Below the pieces are notes generated by a model, which was not told where the DNA came from, made no database searches, and saw nothing but the letters and a program-made list of their open reading frames with translations. From NCBI RefSeq assembly GCF_000374065.1, contig NZ_KB893248.1, forward strand, positions 62,001-126,000: DNA of 64,000 nt. The letters run 5' to 3'. The DNA comes from Spirosoma luteum DSM 19990 (GTDB lineage Bacteria; Bacteroidota; Bacteroidia; Cytophagales; Spirosomataceae). Below are positions 23,205 through 64,000 of the stretch, in pieces. A program made the translations under genes and the position numbers. Within the stretch, counting starts at the first letter, position 1. Every line of letters begins with the position of its first letter.

Positions 23205-23231
23205 TTTTTGTCATCCCGACGCAGGAGGGAT
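23205..23231. repeat. Half copy of the GTCATCCCGACG palindrome family
   Basis: One arm only, starting TTTTTGTCATCCCGAC and continuing GCAGGAGGGAT, in the gap between the GH10 and CE1-CE1 genes. After GGGAT the sequence diverges and no opposite arm follows, so it is a solo or decayed element. Confidence 0.8.
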
Positions 23232-25236: not shown

Positions 25237-25322
25237 TTTGTCATCCCGACGAAGGAGGGATCTTCGGGTGAGGCTAAAAACCTCCAGCTACAGAAGATCC
25301 CTCCTGTTGTCGGGATGACAAA
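25237..25322. repeat. Palindromic repeat, full copy (loop subtype 1)
   Basis: Outer arms TTTGTCATCCCGAC (25237-25250) and GTCGGGATGACAAA (25309-25322) are perfect complements; inside, GGAGGGATCTTC pairs with GAAGATCCCTCC. The centre reads GGGTGAGGCTAAAAACCTCC, shared with the copy at 35549. It fills the gap between two CE1 genes. Neither strand has a T-run after the stem, so it does not look like a terminator. Confidence 0.9.
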
Positions 25323-33246: not shown

Positions 33247-35529
33247 TTAGCGCGTTAAAAGTCTGATTTGATTGAAGCGGGGTGTAGCCTTTCCATTCTG
33301 GGCCACAATTTTCAACGTAATTACCTCCTCTGTACCCGCCTTCAGTCGGGTCGTTTTTCCTCGATTGGCAAGGATTTCGGCGGGCTTTTCATTGATTAGA
33401 AAGCGTACGTTTTCTGGATTGATATCATTTAAAGCTATGATGTCAAGGTATTTACCTGTCTGCTCTTTGTTCTGAAACTGGTACGTAATATAGGATCGGG
33501 TGAGTCGCCAGAAGCGCTCGTCGTCATAGCCCGACTCGCTCTTTTCGCCTTTGTACCCATGGTCGACCTCGGGTTGTTGTTCTCCGCAGTTCACTTTGTC
33601 AACGGTGTTGGCTTCCAGGGCCAGGGCTTCCGCTTCCTGCTGTTTTAGTCGGGCCTGCTGCTCGGCAAAGGCGGCTTTGGTAAACGTAGGGAAGTACATC
33701 TGGTATCGAGCATCGTGCACCTCATAAAACGGTTGCAGCGTCAGTGTGTCCAAAGCGAAACGCAGCCTGGATTCGGGCTTGAGTCGCGCCAGGTACGTGG
33801 CCGGATCACCCACGAGCGCGTAGGCACTGGTAAGCGGATACAGTTTGCCTTTTGTTTCATGACCCATCCGGCTGTCGTCGGCAAAAAGCCCGGTCAAATC
33901 TTTCGTCGACGTTTTGGCGGCCAGCACAATGGGACCGTGTACAAAGGCAGACCAGTTAGAGCCATCGGGTAGTTGTTCCAGGCGGGTGGCGGTTGTGAAG
34001 CGAACCGTGACTTTATCGCCCGATTTCCATTTGCGCGAAACAGCTACGTAACTCGACGGGTTACCATCAACGGGTTGAGCCTTCCCATTGACCAGTATCG
34101 TCAAATTTTCAGCCCATTTCGGGTAACGGATGTGTACCGAAAATTCCTGTGGTTTCGCTGGCTCGATAAGCAGCTCTGTCTGGTTCTGATACGGAAATTC
34201 GGTACGCTGGGTAAGCTTAATCTTTTTGTCTGCCCAGTTTACCGTCGACGGGATGAATAGGTTGACAAAAAGGTCGTTGTCTGAATGGCTATAGATTAGT
34301 TCGCCGTATTTGGTGTGGTTCTCTATCCCCGATCCCACGCAGCACCACATGCTGGTTTCGGGTTGCGAATACACCCGGTAGTGATTAGGCCTGATGGGCG
34401 TGAAATAGACAAACCCGCCTTTTTCGGGGTGCTGACTCGACAGAATGTGGTTATAGAGCGTGCGTTCGTAAAAATCGAGGTAACTCACGTCGTTTTTATC
34501 CAGAAACAGGGCTTTGCTCAGCCGGAGCATATTGAAGGAATTGCAGGTTTCGGGTCCCTGATTCGATCGTAACAGTTGATTGAAATCGGTAGTAGGGTTG
34601 AAATGCTCGCGGACGCTGTTGCCACCGAAAGCCACACTACGCGTCTGCGATACGTTTTGCCAGAAATACACTGCCGCTTCCGACCAATCCGACTTGCCCG
34701 TTAGGGTGGCAATTTTCTCCAAGCCAATCACCTTCGGAATCTGCGTGTTGGCGTGTAGGCCGGTCAGCTTATCCTGTTTTTCGAGCAGGGGAATCAATAA
34801 CGCCCGGTGCGAAATCCGCTGCGCCGTTTCGAGGTATTTTTTGTCCCTGGTTAGTACATACAGGTCGGCAAACGTTTCGTTGATGCCGCCGTGTTCGGTG
34901 CGAAGGACCTGCTGAATCTGCTCGTCGGACAGGGGTTTGATCAGGTCAACGAACCAGTCGCCCAAACCAATCAGTACCTGTTTTGCCTGCTGATTACCGG
35001 CGTATTCGTAGGCGTCGCGCAGGCCCGCAAACAGCTTGTGGATGTTGTAAAGTGGCACCCAGGTATTATTCAGACCAAAGCTGCTGCCATCGATGTCGCC
35101 CTTATGGATTCGCTCCCAGAACACCTTCCCCTCGGGAATGCCCCCCACGTAGCCATTTCCGTTTTTTGCCTGACAGCGGGCCAGTTCGGCCACCATGTAA
35201 TCCAGCCGTTTTTTCAACTCCGGCTCGCCCGTCGAAGCATACATCATGGCCAGCGCCGACAGGTAGTGCCCGCCGATATGGCCATCCAGCCCTGAGCTCT
35301 CCCAGTTGCCATAGCGTTGCGCTTCCAGGGGCAGTCCGGCATCAATCAGGTAGGGGGCCAGGAGTTTGTCCGGGTCCAATGCCAGGATATACTTCAGATC
35401 AACGTCCTGCGCGTTTTTAAATGGGCCACCCGTCAGCTTTACTTCCTGCAAGGCAAACGGCTGCATCTGAGCCAGCGCGGAAAGGCTGGACAGTAACAGG
35501 AGAGCGATATGAAGTACGTTCGTTTTCAA
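33247..35529 (-). CDS. GH127/GH146-type beta-L-arabinofuranosidase (DUF1680)
   Basis: A 760-aa exported enzyme from a TTG start at 35529: KTNVLHIALLLLSSLSALAQ is then the signal peptide. A longer frame starts at an ATG at 35643, but that ATG lies beside a palindromic repeat and the extra residues are repeat translation. Domain: LQEVKLTGGPFKNAQDVD, GLDGHIGGHYLSALAMMYAS, EHGGINETFADLYVLTRDKK, the Cys-rich metal/nucleophile segment SMWCCVGSGIENHTKYGEL, then beta domains (VHIRYPKWAENLTILVNGKA) and a C-terminal tail. GH127/GH146 hydrolyse beta-L-arabinofuranosides with a zinc-bound Cys nucleophile. Possible targets are arabinosylated xylan or hydroxyproline-rich glycoproteins. Confidence 0.92.
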   Translation of the reverse strand: MKTNVLHIALLLLSSLSALAQMQPFALQEVKLTGGPFKNAQDVDLKYILALDPDKLLAPYLIDAGLPLEAQRYGNWESSGLDGHIGGHYLSALAMMYASTGEPELKKRLDYMVAELARCQAKNGNGYVGGIPEGKVFWERIHKGDIDGSSFGLNNTWVPLYNIHKLFAGLRDAYEYAGNQQAKQVLIGLGDWFVDLIKPLSDEQIQQVLRTEHGGINETFADLYVLTRDKKYLETAQRISHRALLIPLLEKQDKLTGLHANTQIPKVIGLEKIATLTGKSDWSEAAVYFWQNVSQTRSVAFGGNSVREHFNPTTDFNQLLRSNQGPETCNSFNMLRLSKALFLDKNDVSYLDFYERTLYNHILSSQHPEKGGFVYFTPIRPNHYRVYSQPETSMWCCVGSGIENHTKYGELIYSHSDNDLFVNLFIPSTVNWADKKIKLTQRTEFPYQNQTELLIEPAKPQEFSVHIRYPKWAENLTILVNGKAQPVDGNPSSYVAVSRKWKSGDKVTVRFTTATRLEQLPDGSNWSAFVHGPIVLAAKTSTKDLTGLFADDSRMGHETKGKLYPLTSAYALVGDPATYLARLKPESRLRFALDTLTLQPFYEVHDARYQMYFPTFTKAAFAEQQARLKQQEAEALALEANTVDKVNCGEQQPEVDHGYKGEKSESGYDDERFWRLTRSYITYQFQNKEQTGKYLDIIALNDINPENVRFLINEKPAEILANRGKTTRLKAGTEEVITLKIVAQNGKATPRFNQIRLLTR

Positions 35530-35548
35530 GAGTGATGCGTTGTTTGAG

Positions 35549-35640
35549 TTTTTGTCATCCCGACGCCAGGAGGGATCTTCGGGTGAGGCTGAGAACCTCC
35601 GGCTACCGGGGATCCCTCCTGGCGTTGGGATGACAAAAAA
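35549..35640. repeat. Palindromic repeat, full copy (loop subtype 1)
   Basis: Arms of about 29 bases starting TTTTTGTCATCCCGACGCCA and ending TTGGGATGACAAAAAA pair with one G-T; the centre carries CTTCGGGTGAGGCTGAGAAC, matching the copy at 25237-25322. Lies between the GH127 and GH43 genes. Confidence 0.9.
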
Positions 35641-35655
35641 CATGGGACGACAAAA

Positions 35656-37338
35656 TCATTTCCTATACATGGGGTCGTCGCCTTTATAAGTCAGGTACTG
35701 GAAAGATGCCGAATTTGTCGTTGGTTCACCCGACGACGTGGCGTACATGCCGTACAGACAGCCGATAAAGCCACCCGCTTCTTTGGTGCTCAGGAATTTG
35801 GCATCTACATCGTCTTTCAGGAGTTTCCAGTTTTTGGTATCGTCCGAAAACGAGAAGCTATACGTACCTCCCTGAGAGGCAATCCGCAGCCCCACTTTAC
35901 CCGCTTTCGACGTTAGCGGCACCTCCGTGAGCAACTCCATCGACTTGTCCTTAGGGTTGCTCCTGAACAGTTGCAACACCTCTTTACCCTGCGCGGTCGA
36001 TTTACTCAGCAGGTAGAAATGGCGTTCGTCCTGAAAAATCATTAGACCGGCTTTCTCCTTCTCCGATTTGGGCGCAAACGTCAGTTCGGTCTCAGCCGTG
36101 CTATACAGGTGCTGTTGCCGTTTCCCAATAAACGACGGGTTACCCATATCCATAACGGTTTCTGGCTTTAGTTTGAGGGTCAACCCATTCTTTTTCGATA
36201 GCGAGAACGAACTGCTGTCTACCGTTCGCATGAACAGCAGCGATGGGTCCAGTGTCTTGTCGAAGCGCAGGGTGTAAGAAAAATTACCCGACTGCGGTAG
36301 GGCGTCTTTCGGCTTCACTTCCTTCCAGGCGGCTGGGTAGGTGTATTGAATCACTTTATGGTCGGGGTCCACAATGGGCCACTCGTCTTTCCAGGTGACG
36401 GGCGCGATAAAGGTCTCCCGGCCTGTGTTGTAGTAGTCGCCCTCGTACGGACGAACGGCCAGGAAAATAGCGTACCACTTCCCATCGGGCCCTTCTATAA
36501 ACTGCGCGTGACCCGCCGACGTAATCGGGTCTTTCCGGTCGGCGGGTAGTCCGCGCTGGGTCAGAATCGGGTTGTTTTCATAGGGTACAAAAGGGCCCCA
36601 CACCGATTTGCTACGGAAAACCACTTCGGTGTGGTTGAGCGACGTACCGCCTTCAGCGGCATAGAGGTAGTACCAGTCGTTCCGCTTCATGATATGCGGG
36701 GCCTCAATCCAGACGGGCTTTTTCGACAAATCGACCCCGCCATTGACGAGCTGTTTCTGTTCACCAACCACTTTCAGGGTTTTGTAATCGAGTTCGTAGA
36801 TCTGAATAGTCCGGTGGCCGGAGTACAGGGGCTTCCGGTCGGGAGCATCGCTGTTGTAAATAACGTACGCTTTGTCCGTTGCTTCGTCGAAGTAGAGGGA
36901 GGGGTCAATGCCACGTACCTGAGGCAGTTTAACCGGGTTGCTCCATGGCCCGGCTGGGTTTTTGGCTGTCGCGATGAAGTTGCCGTCATGATCAATGTCG
37001 GTGCAGGTGACGTAGAACAGGCCTTTATAGTGGTGAATAGCGGGAGCAAACAAGCCACGGGTCAGTCGTTCGCCCATGAAATCCATCTGCGAGGGGCGGT
37101 CGATCACATTGCCAATCTGCTTCCAGTTCTTTAAGTCCTTGCTGTGCAATACCGGAATGCCGGGGAAATAGGAAAATGTGGAGTTGACCAGGTAGTAATC
37201 AGTACCTACCCGTACAATGCTCGGGTCGGGGTAAAAGCCCGTCAGGATTGGGTTCACCAAGGTGGTTTGGGCGAAAGTCCTGTTGATTAAAACCAGGCTA
37301 AGGATTGCGAAAAGAGCCGTAAAAAGGCGATTTCTCAT
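35656..37338 (-). CDS. GH43 beta-xylosidase-type enzyme with C-terminal beta-sandwich
   Basis: A 560-aa exported protein from the ATG at 37338 (MRNRLFTALFAILSLVLINR). GH43: NPILTGFYPDPSIVRVGTDY with the base Asp, GLFAPAIHHYKGLFYVTCTD, RGIDPSLYFDEATDKAYVIY with the modulating Asp, and WIEAPHIMKRNDWYYLYAAE with the acid Glu. The C-terminal domain (SGNFSYTLRFDKTLDPSLLF; IASQGGTYSFSFSDDTKNWK) is the GH43_C2-like sandwich, as in XynB-type beta-xylosidases. It is distinct from the other GH43 in the locus, so the two probably divide beta-xylosidase and alpha-L-arabinofuranosidase work. Confidence 0.94.
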   Translation of the reverse strand: MRNRLFTALFAILSLVLINRTFAQTTLVNPILTGFYPDPSIVRVGTDYYLVNSTFSYFPGIPVLHSKDLKNWKQIGNVIDRPSQMDFMGERLTRGLFAPAIHHYKGLFYVTCTDIDHDGNFIATAKNPAGPWSNPVKLPQVRGIDPSLYFDEATDKAYVIYNSDAPDRKPLYSGHRTIQIYELDYKTLKVVGEQKQLVNGGVDLSKKPVWIEAPHIMKRNDWYYLYAAEGGTSLNHTEVVFRSKSVWGPFVPYENNPILTQRGLPADRKDPITSAGHAQFIEGPDGKWYAIFLAVRPYEGDYYNTGRETFIAPVTWKDEWPIVDPDHKVIQYTYPAAWKEVKPKDALPQSGNFSYTLRFDKTLDPSLLFMRTVDSSSFSLSKKNGLTLKLKPETVMDMGNPSFIGKRQQHLYSTAETELTFAPKSEKEKAGLMIFQDERHFYLLSKSTAQGKEVLQLFRSNPKDKSMELLTEVPLTSKAGKVGLRIASQGGTYSFSFSDDTKNWKLLKDDVDAKFLSTKEAGGFIGCLYGMYATSSGEPTTNSASFQYLTYKGDDPMYRK

Positions 37339-37397
37339 GTGCGTTTGTGTTAATTTCTTCAACCTGTTTTAGCTTATTTGCTCTTTGGTCTCTCCGC

Positions 37398-37482
37398 TTT
37401 TGTCATCCCGACGCAGGAGGGATCTTCGGTCGCAGGCATTTTTCGGCATTTACCGAGGATCCCTCCTGCGTCGGGATGACAG
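37398..37482. repeat. Palindromic repeat, full copy (loop subtype 2), right of the GH43 gene
   Basis: Perfect 24-base arms: TGTCATCCCGACGCAGGAGG (37401-37420, continuing GATC) and its complement at 37458-37481. Inner TTCGGT pairs with ACCGAG by one wobble. The loop begins CGCAGGCATTTTT, shared with the copy at 37902. The right flank reads CACGGGATCACAAAAACACG. Confidence 0.92.
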
Positions 37483-37533
37483 GAAAACACGGGATCACAA
37501 AAACACGGGAGGATAGAAAAAGAAAACGTATTT

Positions 37534-37836
37534 TCATTCCTGGATTTCATCGTTTAAAAAGCGCCATTCGGGATTTATTGAATTGATTAGTTCCACTTTC
37601 TTTTCCCTCCGCCATCCCTTGATCTCCTTTTCACGAGTAATCGCGTTGCGAACGTACTGGTGATGCTCCCAATAGATCAACCGGTGACAGTAGTATTTAC
37701 CGGCGAACTTTCCCACTTGTCCGCGCGATTCATAGTGCTCCTGTATCCTTCTGACCAGATCATTCGTCATGCCCGTGTATAAAGCCGTTCGTTCGGGATT
37801 GGTTACGATATAGACGTAAAAAGCATAACCATTCAT
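37534..37836 (-). CDS. GIY-YIG nuclease domain protein, solitary, flanked by palindromic repeats
   Basis: A 100-aa protein made only of a GIY-YIG domain, UPF0213/YhbQ-like. The two core strands are Y9-I10-V11 in FYVYIVTN and Y20-T21-G22 in LYTGMT; R29 in LVRRIQEH and an Asp/Glu near 70 in EKEIKGWRREKKVEL complete the usual set. These are endonucleases, but the free-standing short ones have no settled role. No signal peptide and no partner gene; its neighbours are xylan-degrading glycosidases with which it shares no logic. It sits between two same-type, same-orientation palindromic repeats (37398-37482 and 37902-37985), suggesting insertion or co-mobilisation. Confidence 0.88.
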   Translation of the reverse strand: MNGYAFYVYIVTNPERTALYTGMTNDLVRRIQEHYESRGQVGKFAGKYYCHRLIYWEHHQYVRNAITREKEIKGWRREKKVELINSINPEWRFLNDEIQE

Positions 37837-37901
37837 GACACTACATTTTTAGACTTTTTAGCTTTTTTTTAAAAGGCACCCTTTTTTATATATCATCCCG
37901 T

Positions 37902-37985
37902 GCTTTTGTCATCCCGACGTAGGGGGGATCTTCGGTCGCAGGCATTTTACTATTCCCGAAGGTCCCTCGTTCCTCGGGATGACAA
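37902..37985. repeat. Palindromic repeat, full copy (loop subtype 2), left of the GH95 gene
   Basis: Left arm TTTTGTCATCCCGACGTAGG, right arm ending TTCCTCGGGATGACAAA. The loop begins TTCGGTCGCAGGCATTTT, the same orientation and subtype as the copy at 37398. The arms are less perfect (a more decayed copy), and the right flank repeats ACGGGATCACAAAAA seen beside the other copy. An extra TCATCCCGTGC fragment lies just to the left. Confidence 0.9.
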
Positions 37986-38007
37986 AGAAAACGGGATCAC
38001 AAAAAAA

Positions 38008-40479
38008 CTATTGAGCGACCAGCGTGTATGATTTACCGGCTTGCGTTGGCAGGTCGTAAAGTATGGTTTCTTTTAATACAGGCGCTGCCGCTGTTGCCTT
38101 CTCCGACACAATAGGTGCTGGCGTTGGCTCGATCTGGTAGAACGGGTTTGGGTTCTGACCGGATGCTATTTTTGGCGCAGCTCCCTTGTTGATTGTTAGT
38201 GCATTCGGCGTCCGTACACGCAGGTTCCCGCCTAGGTTCGACTTAACGACAACCTTCGCCAGTTTCCCTGCTTTCCACTCCATACTGACCACCTCGAATC
38301 CACCAATTGCCCGCAGTCCGCTGATACTGCCGGTTGGCCATACATCGGGCAGAGCAGGTAATAAGTGAATAGCCCCGTCGGCACTTTGCATCAGCATTTC
38401 GGTGATGCCGGATGTGCAGCCAAAGTTGCCGTCAATCTGGAACGGCGGGTGCGCATCGAACAGGTTGTTGTAGGTACCGCCCCCGTCTTTGGTAACGCCC
38501 AGCGGGGTAAGTTGATTCTGAATCAGCGTATAAGCATGATTGCCGTCCTGCAACCGCGCCCACCAGTTCACTTTCCAGCCCATACTCCACCCCGTCGACA
38601 CATCGCCCCGGTGAATCAGCGTCGTTCGGGCTGCGTTGAACAGCCCGGGCGTGCGGTAGGGCGAAAGCTGGTTCGACGGAAACAGGCCGTACAAATGCGA
38701 AATATGCCGGTGTTTATCGGTTGGATCGTCGATGTCTTCCAGCCACTCCTGCAATTGCCCGTGCTGACCAATGTGCATGGGCGGTAGCTTGCTGCGCATC
38801 TGCTTCAGGGTATCCACGAAAGCAGCATCTTTCTTCAGCACTTCAGCAGCCCGAATGGTAGTGGTGAATACGTCGAAGGCAATCTGGTTATCCATCGTAG
38901 TACCCGCATCCAGCGAGGAACCTCCGTGTGCTTTGGGAGCATTCTCGGGCGACGTACCCGGCGTGACAACCAGCCAGTGGTATTTGGGGTGCTCAACGAG
39001 GTAATCGGTGTAAAACAGGGCGGCTCCTTTCAGAATCGGGTATACTGACGCCAGGTACATCTCGTCGCCATTGTAGAGGTAATGCTCCCACAAGTGCTGA
39101 CTGGTCCAGCCGCCACCGGCCACCCACATACCCCACATCGCGCCATCGACAGCACCCGTTGCCCGCCAGATGTCGGTGTTGTGGTGGGCCATCCAGCCCC
39201 GTGCCCCGTACATCACCCGCGCCGTTTCCTGCCCCGTCTCCGACATGTCGCGAACCATCTGCAAAAACGGCTCGTGCAGTTCGGCCAGGTTCGTTTTTTC
39301 GGCGGGCCAGTAGTTCATCTGGGCGTTGATGTTGATGGTGTATTTGCTATCCCAGGGGGGCTTCATTTTGTTGTTCCAGATGCCCTGAAGGTTAGCGGGC
39401 TGTCCCCCTGGTTGCGAGGACGAAATCAACAAATACCGGCCATATTGGTAATACAGCGTCACCAGTTGTGGGTCGCTGACCGACCGAAAGTTTTTCAGTC
39501 GCTCGTCGGTGGGGAGCTTGGTGGCATCGACTGAAGGCCTGGTAGTAGTGCCCAGGTTGAATTTAACCCGGTTAAAATAATTTTGGTAAGCGGCAACGTG
39601 TGATGTCAATAGGGTCGCGTATGACTTCGGATAAGCCCTGGTTAAATAGTCGGTTGCCCGCTGGTTTTCGTCGCCATTGACGTCGTGGTAATTCGTAAAA
39701 TTGGTGGCAATGGAAATGTAGATGGTGGCACTGTTTGCTCCGCGTACCGTAAGCGCCGTATCACTGGCAGACAGGCTGCCGCCCTGCGTTTTAATGCGGG
39801 TAATGCCTTTGAACCGAACCACGCTTTTTACGCCTTCGTGGTCCGACGTTGTAGCCGCAATGGTCAGTTCATTGGCGGATGTTTTAATGACTGGTTGATT
39901 ATGCTGGGTGGTGTAGGAAGCGGAAAACGAGATAGCCCCGGGCTTGTTTGCCGTTAGTTGCATGACAATAATGCGGTCGGGAAACGAAGCCAGCACTTCG
40001 CGGGTGTACGCAACGCCATCGACGGTATAGGTCGTTTTGGCCACAGCCCGCTCAATATCCAGTTCGCGGTAATAATTCGTGTAGTTCTCGTGTCCGGCAA
40101 ACGTCAGATTCAGGTTACCCATAGGCTGAAACATTTGCCCGTTCGACTTTTTGGAGATAATGCTCTTGTTGGCCAGCTGCTCCGCTTCTTTTTGTTTGCC
40201 ATCAAAAATCAGTCGCCGTACTTCAGCTAAAGCCGCCAGTGCATTCGGGTTATCATTTCGGTTCGGGCCACCTGACCAGAGGGTATGTTCGTTGAGCTGG
40301 ATCGTTTCTTTCTCTACGTTTCCGTAAACCATTGCTCCCAGTCGGCCATTGCCAATGGGCAGGGCATTTTCCCAGGTTTGGCCCGATGGGTTATTATACC
40401 AAAGTTTTAGCGGTGACTTTGTTTGCGAGAAACAAGCCGATGATACCGTCAGAAAAAAGAAGCAGAAAAATTGTCTCAT
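38008..40479 (-). CDS. GH95 alpha-L-fucosidase / alpha-L-galactosidase
   Basis: An 823-aa exported enzyme (signal [19 protein letters not shown]). N-terminal beta domain: [40 protein letters not shown]. (alpha/alpha)6 core: [20 protein letters not shown] with the catalytic Asn pair, [34 protein letters not shown] and [20 protein letters not shown] with the Asp. GH95 are inverting 1,2-alpha-L-fucosidases; in the xylan PULs of Bacteroides a GH95 acts on alpha-L-galactose on highly decorated xylan, so that role fits here. First gene after the SusD lipoprotein, with a 172-base gap. Confidence 0.94.
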
Positions 40480-61415: not shown

Positions 61416-64000
61416 TTAGAAAGTAAGCTGAAGACCAGCCAAAACTGTCCGGGATTGTGGAAAGTTAGCGTAGTCGATACCATTCCGCAGCAACGTACCA
61501 TTCCGGGAACCGACTTCGGGATCGTAGCCGGTGTACTTGGTCAGGGTCAGCAGGTTCTGGCTTGATACGTACACCCGGACTTTGCTAACAACATTATTAG
61601 TCAAACTGCCGAGTGTTTTAACCGGGATTGAGTAACCAATAGTCAGGTTCTTGATGCGCATGTACGAACCATCTTCGAGAAAACGGTCTGACGTACGGCT
61701 GTTATTGTTGGGGTCACCACTAATCGACCGCGGAACGTCGGTATTCGAATTGGTAGGCGTCCAGGCATTTAGCACGGCCGGTCCTGCATTGAACAGCCGC
61801 AGCTGGCCCTGCGTAACAACTTTGGTACCGTTATAAATCTTATTACCCTGTACTCCCTGCAGGTACAGCGTAAAGTCGAAATTTTTATACGTGCCGGAAA
61901 GATTGGCGCCGTAGTTGAACTTCGGTATGTAACTGCCCAGGTAGGTTCGGTCATTGGCGTCGATCTTACCATCGCCGTTGAGGTCTTTGAACCGGATATC
62001 ACCGGGGGCTGCATTGGCCAGATAAGGCGTTTTGTCGTTACCATCAATAGCATTGGCAGCGTTAATTTCTGCCTGACTCTGAAAAATGCCATCGACCTGG
62101 TAGCCGTAAAACGATTGAACGGGTTGCCCAACTTCGGTTTTTGTTATGTCGTAACCACCGTAATCAGCGTCCTGACCAGCATAGATGGAGGCCGTTGGTG
62201 TCGCCAGGCTTAGTACCCGGTTGCGGGTAATACCGACGTTAGCCGATGCGTTTCCGCGGAAATCACCCTTAGCGAAGTTGTATCCTGCCTGGAATTCATA
62301 GCCCCAGTTTTTCATGCTGCCAATGTTGGCCACCGGCGCGTTGCTATACCCAATGGAGTTCGGAATTGGCACGGCCAGAATCAAACCATTTGTGTTCCGA
62401 TTGTATACTTCAGCCGAGAAGGTGATACGGTTATTAAACAAGCCGCCATCTATTCCCAGGTTGACCATGTCGGTCGTTTCCCATTTCAGGTCTGTATTTC
62501 CCAGCCCATTGAAATACGAACCCAGGCTATTGGCTGAGCCGAAGGGATAAGCCGTTGCATCGGCATTTACCAGCGACTGCCAGGCATAGTTACCAATGCC
62601 ATTAAAGCCGGTTTTGCCATAGCTGGCTCGTAATTTCAGTTCAGAAAATTGGGGCAATCCTTTCATGAATCCTTCCTGATTAATGCGCCAGCCGACCGAT
62701 GCGGATGGGAAGTTACCCCACTTGTTACCGGGAGCAAACAACGAAGAACCGTCGCGTCGAATGGAGGCACTAAGCAGGTACTTACCGGCATATTCGTAGT
62801 TGATACGGCCTACATACGAAATTAATTCCGTCACAAAGCGAGCACTGTTTACCGATGGATTGCTTACGCCCTGAATCACGTTCAGGTCATTGTTTGGCCG
62901 GGTGCCGGAACCGTTCAAATTGGTAAATGTTGACTTTTGGTTTTCGGCCACTGCCAGCACATTAAACTCGTGCTTACCAAATGTCTTATCGAATGTAAGC
63001 TGGTTGGTAAATATCTGCGAGATATTGGTGCTGCGGTTATCGGTAATAGTAGCCGACGTGCGGCCGCTATACCCATCATTATAAATCGGCAAAAATCCGG
63101 TTGTTGTTCCGAAGCCCAGATCAGCTCCGTAGTTGAAGCGGTAGCGGAGATTGCTGGTCAGCTTCACTTCGGCATATACGGTTGCAAACGCTTTCAGGAA
63201 CTTGTTTCTGGTGATATCCAATGCGGGAGCGCGGAGCGGATTTTCAGGGTCGGTTCCATCCAGCGCGGTTGGCGCGCTAAAGCCGCCCATTTTCGTTGGG
63301 TCTGTTGCCGGAAAGTAAGGCACCATCCGCAGGGCGTTCATCAACTGGGAACGGTTCCCCGTGGTTTCAGGGCGCTGGTTGCTGTAAGATGCGGTCAGTG
63401 TCTGGCCAATCGTCAGGAACTTGGCTACCTGGTGATCCGAATTAAGTCGCAGCGACCCCCGCTCGAAGCTGGTACCCTGCTGAATACCCTGTTGGTTGAA
63501 ATAGTTTCCGGAGGCAAAGAACCGGGAAACAGTATTACCGCCCGAAAGCGATAGCTGCTGCTGCTGAATAGGCGCATTGCGGAACAGCTCGTTTTGCCAG
63601 TTGGTTTCTGTCTGGGCAAACGTTTGGGTAGCACCAGGATAGATAGGCGTGTTCAGGTTGCCTAGACGACTTGGCAGCGGAAAACCAGCGTTCGATGTCA
63701 GTGCCGTGGCATACTGAACGTACTGATCGCGGTTAAGCACGTCGATCTTTTTCCAGGCACTTTGCGTACCCACGTACGAGTCGATGGTAATCCGCACCCG
63801 GTTATCCCGGCTTCCTTTTTTGGTGGTAATGAGCACGACGCCATTAGCTGCCCGTGAACCATAAATAGCGGCTGAACTGGCATCCTTCAACACCTCCAAC
63901 GACTCGATGTCATTGGTATTAAAGCTGTTGAGGTCACCAGTTGGTACACCGTCAATCACGTATAATGGGCCAGACCCGTAGTTGATTGAACCAACACCCC
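61416..64000 (-). CDS. SusC/RagA TonB-dependent receptor, 5' part cut off by the window end
   Basis: 860 residues up to the stop at 61416; the frame continues past base 64000, so the N-terminus (signal, any STN or carboxypeptidase-like domain) is outside the window. The last visible upstream residues, [19 protein letters not shown], and then [20 protein letters not shown] are the plug domain, so an apparent start at 63959 (a GTG) is internal. Barrel strands run to [11 protein letters not shown]. Imports an unknown glycan with the SusD downstream. Whether it carries an STN domain, hence an ECF sigma link, cannot be seen. Confidence 0.95.

Follow-up and report, generated by a model that had tools for sequence, protein, structure and literature searches.

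A 64,000-nt stretch of the genome of Spirosoma luteum DSM 19990 (positions 62,001 to 126,000 of contig NZ_KB893248.1, assembly GCF_000374065.1; 6.61 Mb in total), hereafter the window, contains an ORF of 303 bp which encodes a GIY-YIG protein of 100 aa (PF01541, 53.5 bits). On each side, 52 and 68 bp away, lies a head-to-head dimer (REPIN) of a short tagged hairpin (REP), TGTC-ATCCC-GACGCAGGA-GGGAT-CT and its mirror (Table 1). A sequence-only reading had described this arrangement as a nuclease gene framed by two palindromes of one subtype and orientation with a common outer flank, and this is confirmed; the two dimers share a 47-nt left part that runs into the loop CTTCGGTCGCAGGCATTTT (96% identical, same orientation) and the outer flank ACGGGATCACAAAAA, although the right arm of the upstream dimer is decayed. 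The outer flank resembles a broken REP half (the reverse of TTTTTGTGATCCCGT, compared by eye with halves in relatives). The other two full copies in the window have no gene of this kind beside them and share a different loop (CTTCGGGTGAGGCT..AACCTCC). The motif GTCATCCCGACG, allowing up to 2 mismatches, occurs 18 times in the window against 5.1 expected, and none of 100 shuffles was as high. Among 13 REPIN places of the genome (21 half-units found with one pattern, plus one further copy in the window) the only two places 200-800 bp apart enclose this gene; this list is incomplete, as a covariance model shows at least 7 further places. The neighbouring genes belong to the GH43, GH95 and GH127 families by comparison with an annotated syntenic plasmid; noteworthy, the GH127-like ORF as called starts inside a REPIN, so its first ~30 residues are translated repeat and the real start is probably downstream.

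Table 1. Features of the nuclease locus and of related repeats (positions are those of the window)
Position	Strand	Feature	Remarks
37534-37836	-	GIY-YIG nuclease gene	100 aa
37401-37481		REPIN 1, downstream of the gene; head-to-head dimer of TGTC-AT..AT-CT REP units	units 37402-37423 (+) and 37459-37480 (-); arms 37401-37430/37452-37481, 30 nt, 97% complementary
37905-37986		REPIN 2, upstream of the gene; same subtype and orientation	unit 37908-37929 (+), right unit decayed; arms 37905-37935/37956-37986, 31 nt, 84% complementary
37489-37503	+	outer flank ACGGGATCACAAAAA	
37991-38005	+	second copy of the outer flank	
35554-35634		REPIN without a gene at the GH43/GH127 junction	the same junction holds the nuclease unit in three other Spirosoma genomes
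25240-25319		REPIN without a gene, other loop subtype	
23210-23231	+	single REP unit	
33247-35643	-	GH127-like ORF as called	starts inside the REPIN at 35554-35634
35656-37362	-	GH43-family gene flanking the unit	marks the junctions J1 and J2
38008-40479	-	GH95-family gene on the other side of the unit	

In an alignment of the protein with 29 relatives, residues Y9, Y20, G22, R30, H34, E69 and N88 are invariant, which comprises the catalytic residues of the GIY-YIG superfamily (two Tyr, Arg, Glu, C-terminal Asn). The predicted structure (pLDDT 92) is nearest to that of a UPF0213 protein (1zg2; E 7e-4, 28% identity), next to structures of Slx1 (E 0.02-0.1; 15-20% identity), and then, weakly, to UvrC and I-TevI. 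The sequence-only reading had called the protein UPF0213-like, but nothing shows it to be UPF0213 proper. Slx1 cuts branched DNA, which makes a hairpin or cruciform substrate plausible.

To assess whether the association is more than local, the best 80 of 523 homologous loci found in a genome collection were retrieved by protein similarity alone; judged by their titles they are Bacteroidota, and they include some near-identical MAG pairs. The exact motif GTCATYCCGA occurs 106 times in 101.7 kb within 500 bp of the gene (34 of 80 loci) and 61 times in 747.5 kb elsewhere. A generic hairpin pattern, GTC followed by a stem of AT plus three bases, occurs 180 times in 62.9 kb near the gene (54 of 80 loci) and 127 times in 763 kb farther out, that is, 17 times more densely within 400 bp; of 64 tag trinucleotides tried GTC is the most frequent, and the next four (AAG, CAG, TAG, GAG) are read here as the other ends of the same hairpins. 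De novo palindrome counts gave a weaker, 3-fold excess. With 4 of the 80 loci dropped because they lie at contig edges, REPs stand within 250 bp on both sides of 32 of 76 nuclease genes but of 3 of 381 other ORFs in the same loci, and on either side of 50 of 76 against 55 of 381. The link is thus strong but not universal, 26 of the 76 homologs having no REP within 250 bp by this strict pattern, though some of these have palindromes that the pattern misses. A second draw over 296 Bacteroidota genomes, 142 of which had a match, gave 29 further loci, of which 21 have a REP within 400 bp, 12 on both sides; once two loci that repeat the first set are removed, 19 of 27 remain, 11 of them with REPs on both sides, with 44 REPs in 21.6 kb near and 16 in 59.4 kb far. 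All 14 Spirosoma genomes with the gene have REPs within 400 bp of it. In contrast, of 23 other GIY-YIG-domain matches in seven Spirosoma genomes (UvrC, short ones and partial ones) only one has what look like REPs within 400 bp; six, this one among them, have a pattern hit that looks like a tRNA arm, and another has a hit that does not look like a REP.

The repeat is not restricted to GTCATCCCGACG; its stem varies with compensation, and the conserved parts are the GTC tag, the AT at the base of the stem, tandem G/A mismatches and a CT tail. Of 199 REPs within 500 bp of the Bacteroidota genes, 183 have an interior that begins and ends with GA, 125 of those 183 close on a GNA triloop, and CT follows the stem in 173; the tag is preceded by T in 181, by C in 5 and by A or G in 13, and 17 different stems occur. 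The AT is invariant in the subtype termed A1, but there it was part of the search pattern; likewise, the outer stem was part of the pattern, so its pairing is no evidence. The inner closing pair, however, played no part in the selection and is a Watson-Crick pair in 95 of 95 near units with a 9-nt GA..GA interior; in an alignment of 37 of the 44 distinct 26-nt units both sides are changed in 19. A whole REPIN of the window (REPIN 1) folds as single-stranded DNA at -38 kcal/mol (z -10.8), whereas standard DNA folding of single type A REPs is not better than that of shuffled sequences (z -0.53 and 0.26) and that of a CGTC-type unit is (z -4.16). This may be because the programs give little for G/A mismatches with a GNA loop; DNA mini-hairpins of this kind are probably unusually stable, although the folding does not show it. 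An RNA-element reading found no support, as there was no Rfam match in the window or in four other loci.

Outside Bacteroidota, seventeen loci from named records of a plasmid collection were read, picked for variety of organism from the 32, 45 and 34 largely overlapping records matched by three queries (a Spirosoma record is counted apart); the sample is small and uneven, and some records look like chromosomes filed there. Fifteen have REPs around the nuclease: CGTC, with TGTC variants, in Sinorhizobium, Rhizobium, Shinella (two loci), Novosphingobium, Azospirillum, Sphingobium, Neisseria, Photobacterium (one side only), Aeromonas and Neorhizobium; TGTC in Planktothrix; and CCTC in Rhizobium (seen on one side) and in two further Sinorhizobium loci. 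The CCTC repeats, and the downstream copies of the CGTC-bearing Sinorhizobium locus, were recognized by eye. Two divergent relatives, from Sphingomonas and Salinivibrio (40% and 32% identical to their queries), have no REP by the pattern. A tag scan in these seventeen loci did not put GTC first (GTC 36 near and 41 far; TCA 53 and 46; CAT 46 and 48; ATC 45 and 32), perhaps because the stems there contain the same letters in shifted frames, so that for these loci the statement relies on reading the sequences. The Neisseria locus carries repeats such as CGTCATTCCCGCGCAGGCGGGAATC on both sides of the nuclease. In the Planktothrix plasmid the nuclease and REPs sit between a type IIL restriction-modification gene and drmA of a DISARM system, and in several Sinorhizobium medicae records matches of only 30-31 residues to the nuclease look like decayed copies.

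These repeats recall the CGTC-tagged REP superfamily described by Di Nocera et al. 2013 (PMC3733652), which includes Neisseria dRS3 and Rickettsia RPE-6/RPE-4 and is defined by the tag CGTC, often TGTC or CCTC, AT at the first and second stem positions, 8-9-bp stems with 4-5-nt loops, CCA tails and head-to-head dimers. REPs beside most of the proteobacterial nucleases conform to this, with the tail varying and with AT seen, without having been demanded, in all but the Novosphingobium and Sphingobium loci. The Bacteroidota REPs share the tag, the AT and the dimers, the latter seen in the window and at the Spirosoma junctions, but the type found in the window (type A) has a 5-bp stem, tandem G/A mismatches and a CT tail instead. 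The survey found no enzyme associated with the superfamily and named this as future work.

The unit is insertable, as sites that hold it are empty in relatives. In the xylan cluster, 30 of 36 Spirosoma genomes hold the GH43 gene. The REP-flanked nuclease lies between GH95 and GH43 (J1) in seven, the genome of the window included, and between GH43 and GH127 (J2) in three, the last state also occurring in the Spirosoma oryzicola record; one flanking REPIN is incomplete in some. A solitary REPIN lies at the other junction in 8 of these 10 (one other is cut off by the contig end, one has none). The remaining 20 have no nuclease there; some have solitary REPINs or half-units, some have nothing, and five have, by eye, short scars such as GTCATCCC..GGGATGAC, which look like REPINs collapsed by deletion between short repeats inside the palindrome. 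Outside several REPINs, at four loci and at one outer flank of the window's unit, in the Spirosoma GH43 region lie broken REP halves (GTCATCCCGnn before TTTTTGTCATCCCG), as if new REPINs had inserted into old ones. On a GH43 tree gene presence changes 8 times and position at least twice. The nuclease tree of Spirosoma is poorly resolved, and its identities do not track those of GH43 (r -0.08, 13 genomes), which may reflect transfer of either gene. In two loci without the unit at the GH95/GH43 junction, a different fold-back repeat family (ACAGGATTnACA .. TGTnAATCCTGT with T/A runs) occupies this place, and in Spirosoma genome G018, which has many REPs but no nuclease gene of this clade, the junction is filled by a further palindromic family around CCCCCTAAAGGGGG.

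Three Spirosoma genomes have the unit in an ilv operon, between genes read as ilvN and ilvC from their translated ends. Of 30 loci read there, two hold the unit (that of the third genome, G024, was not among the 30, but its flanks align); 19 have a gap of 32-47 bp to the nearest upstream ORF, in 15 of these with the same ilvN-like end and 35-45 bp, and degenerate REP remnants without a gene are seen by eye in five genomes. In Azospirillum lipoferum 4B the unit lies between sufB and sufC; all four relatives retrieved (A. oryzae, A. ramasamyi, sp. B510 and A. argentinense) lack it, three of them with 95-96% identical matches. Interestingly, Shinella sp. PSBB067 has a different nuclease with a different REP type in the same gap. 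One genome (G101) has three units in tandem with a period of about 420 bp. No target-site duplication was recognized by eye.

The architecture of the REPs follows the nuclease clade and not the host. In one Bacteroidota genome (8 of its 9 matches retrieved) five nuclease genes with typed flanking REPs carry four architectures (C, C, B, D, E) and three have no typed REP; a second (6 of 7 retrieved) carries B, C, D and three without, and a third (5 of 10 retrieved) A, B, E and two without. One Sinorhizobium meliloti record likewise has two nucleases, one with CGTC and one with CCTC repeats. On a tree of 109 nucleases that have a typed REP (from 162 rows; 42 without a typed REP and 11 duplicate or doubly broken rows were left out), the type changes 8 times against a mean of 34.5 in shuffles, 0 of 200 being as low. 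The Watson-Crick types D and E fall in one supported clade (SH-aLRT 97) which mixes Bacteroidota and Proteobacteria. It should be noted that types A-E were defined after the sequences had been seen, that the tree was built by a quick method and has many open forks, and that near-copies inflate the contrast with the shuffles.

REPs are also more numerous in genomes with the gene, with exceptions. In Spirosoma, REP pattern counts have a median of 29.5 in 14 genomes with the gene and 2.5 in the 22 in which it was not found (Mann-Whitney p 1.2e-4, not corrected for phylogeny). When phylogeny is controlled for the result is only suggestive: 7 independent pairs give on average 4.5-5 in favor and 0 against, with a median p of 0.06-0.125. 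G018 has 85 REP matches and no gene of this clade, while its sister has the gene and 25 REPs; G024 (84% complete) has the gene and 1 REP of this pattern; and G008, with the most REPs (111), has an in-frame stop in its copy of the gene. Over the 296 Bacteroidota genomes, 96 have both gene and REP, 41 REP only, 46 gene only and 113 neither (E 0.1; OR 5.8, p 1.3e-12), falling to OR 2.8, p 0.009 at E 0.001. Thus, 41 of 137 REP-bearing genomes have no detected gene and 46 of 142 gene-bearing ones no detected REP. As the REP model is tuned to type A and counts saturate at 26, these are presence data, and they are not corrected for phylogeny.

Taken together, these data make it likely that the gene and its flanking palindromes form one autonomous mobile unit, REPIN - GIY-YIG nuclease - REPIN, of which the solitary REPINs elsewhere in the genome would be the non-autonomous offspring. 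The sequence-only reading had proposed a mobile or self-maintaining unit of nuclease and repeat comparable to REP elements with a RAYT transposase, and is supported in this: the repeats are enriched beside homologs, there are syntenic loci that lack the unit, and the repeat type goes with the nuclease clade. How the unit moves is inferred only, no cleavage, binding or transposition having been observed. The nuclease may recognize its cognate REP hairpin (unpaired GTC tag, AT-based stem, tandem G/A mismatches or a 4-5-nt loop) when the DNA is single-stranded or extruded as a cruciform, probably during replication, and nick it at the tag or tip. Since a GIY-YIG enzyme is expected to hydrolyse DNA and not to rejoin strands, copying would depend on host repair or replication, the cut leading to gene conversion or copying of a REPIN, or of the whole unit, into a new site or into an existing REP.

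In REPIN/RAYT (TnpA-REP) systems, short tagged hairpins likewise form head-to-head dimers scattered between genes, one dedicated nuclease gene is flanked by the repeats, and enzyme clade and repeat type are paired. The system described here would work like these but does not belong to that family, as its enzyme is a GIY-YIG nuclease and not an HUH tyrosine transposase (IS200/IS605-like) and its tag is GTC (TGTC, CGTC or CCTC) and not GTAG. With GIY-YIG homing endonucleases (I-TevI family) the unit shares the catalytic superfamily, the mobile gene and possibly gene conversion, but no second domain was found in the 100-aa protein, there is no intron, and the repeats beside the gene are multicopy hairpins. 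The nuclease would fill the place which RAYT transposases hold for GTAG REPs, for the CGTC/TGTC REP superfamily that was thought to lack an enzyme. No paper that links GIY-YIG to REPs was found in the PubMed Central literature searched (which included PMC3733652, PMC12306157, PMC5082802 and PMC1564403). Going further, it is somewhat more likely than not that a clade of small GIY-YIG nucleases provides the dedicated enzymes of the whole CGTC/TGTC/CCTC REP superfamily, from Bacteroidota through Alpha-, Beta- and Gammaproteobacteria to Cyanobacteria, with dRS3 and, by extension, the Rickettsia RPE-4/RPE-6 repeats among their products. Together these would form a class of mobile DNA that spreads by hydrolytic nicking of a DNA hairpin plus host repair, without any transposase, each nuclease lineage having co-evolved with its own hairpin architecture. 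A role of this kind would give a function to many proteins annotated as "GIY-YIG nuclease family protein" (in some records "excinuclease ABC subunit C"), would bear on the dRS3-type repeats of Neisseria, and would show that hairpin-driven mobile elements arose with at least two unrelated nuclease chemistries.

The main alternative, which is considered unlikely, is that the REPs spread by some other means and that the nuclease gene is a free-standing homing gene which cuts REPINs and is copied into them, and so ends up flanked by REP halves or REPINs. The change between J1 and J2 in Spirosoma, with a solitary REPIN mostly at the other junction, and the fact that GIY-YIG is a homing-endonuclease fold, speak for this scenario. 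However, the number of REPs goes with presence of the gene and each nuclease clade has its own REP architecture, which a mere lodger would not need; in part the two views are compatible, as the same cut would do both. Still less likely is a cellular repair nuclease that removes REP cruciforms, the REPs beside its gene being regulatory (terminators, mRNA stability, autoregulation). While the fold is close to UPF0213 and Slx1, and hairpins of other REPs can act on mRNA, the unit sits at different and unrelated places, is missing from empty sites and forms a tandem array in G101, the gene is not found in 22 of 36 Spirosoma genomes, and other GIY-YIG genes of the genus are, with 1 exception in 23, not flanked by REPs. 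That REPs merely gather in intergenic space, so that any small inserted gene would be flanked by them by chance, is contradicted, abundant as REPs are around some loci, by the finding that only 1 of 118 control ORFs of 100-200 aa in the same loci has REPs on both sides and that in a further genome (G001), of 35 REPIN places of one pattern, the only pair 200-800 bp apart encloses this gene, as it does among the 13 listed places of the window's genome.
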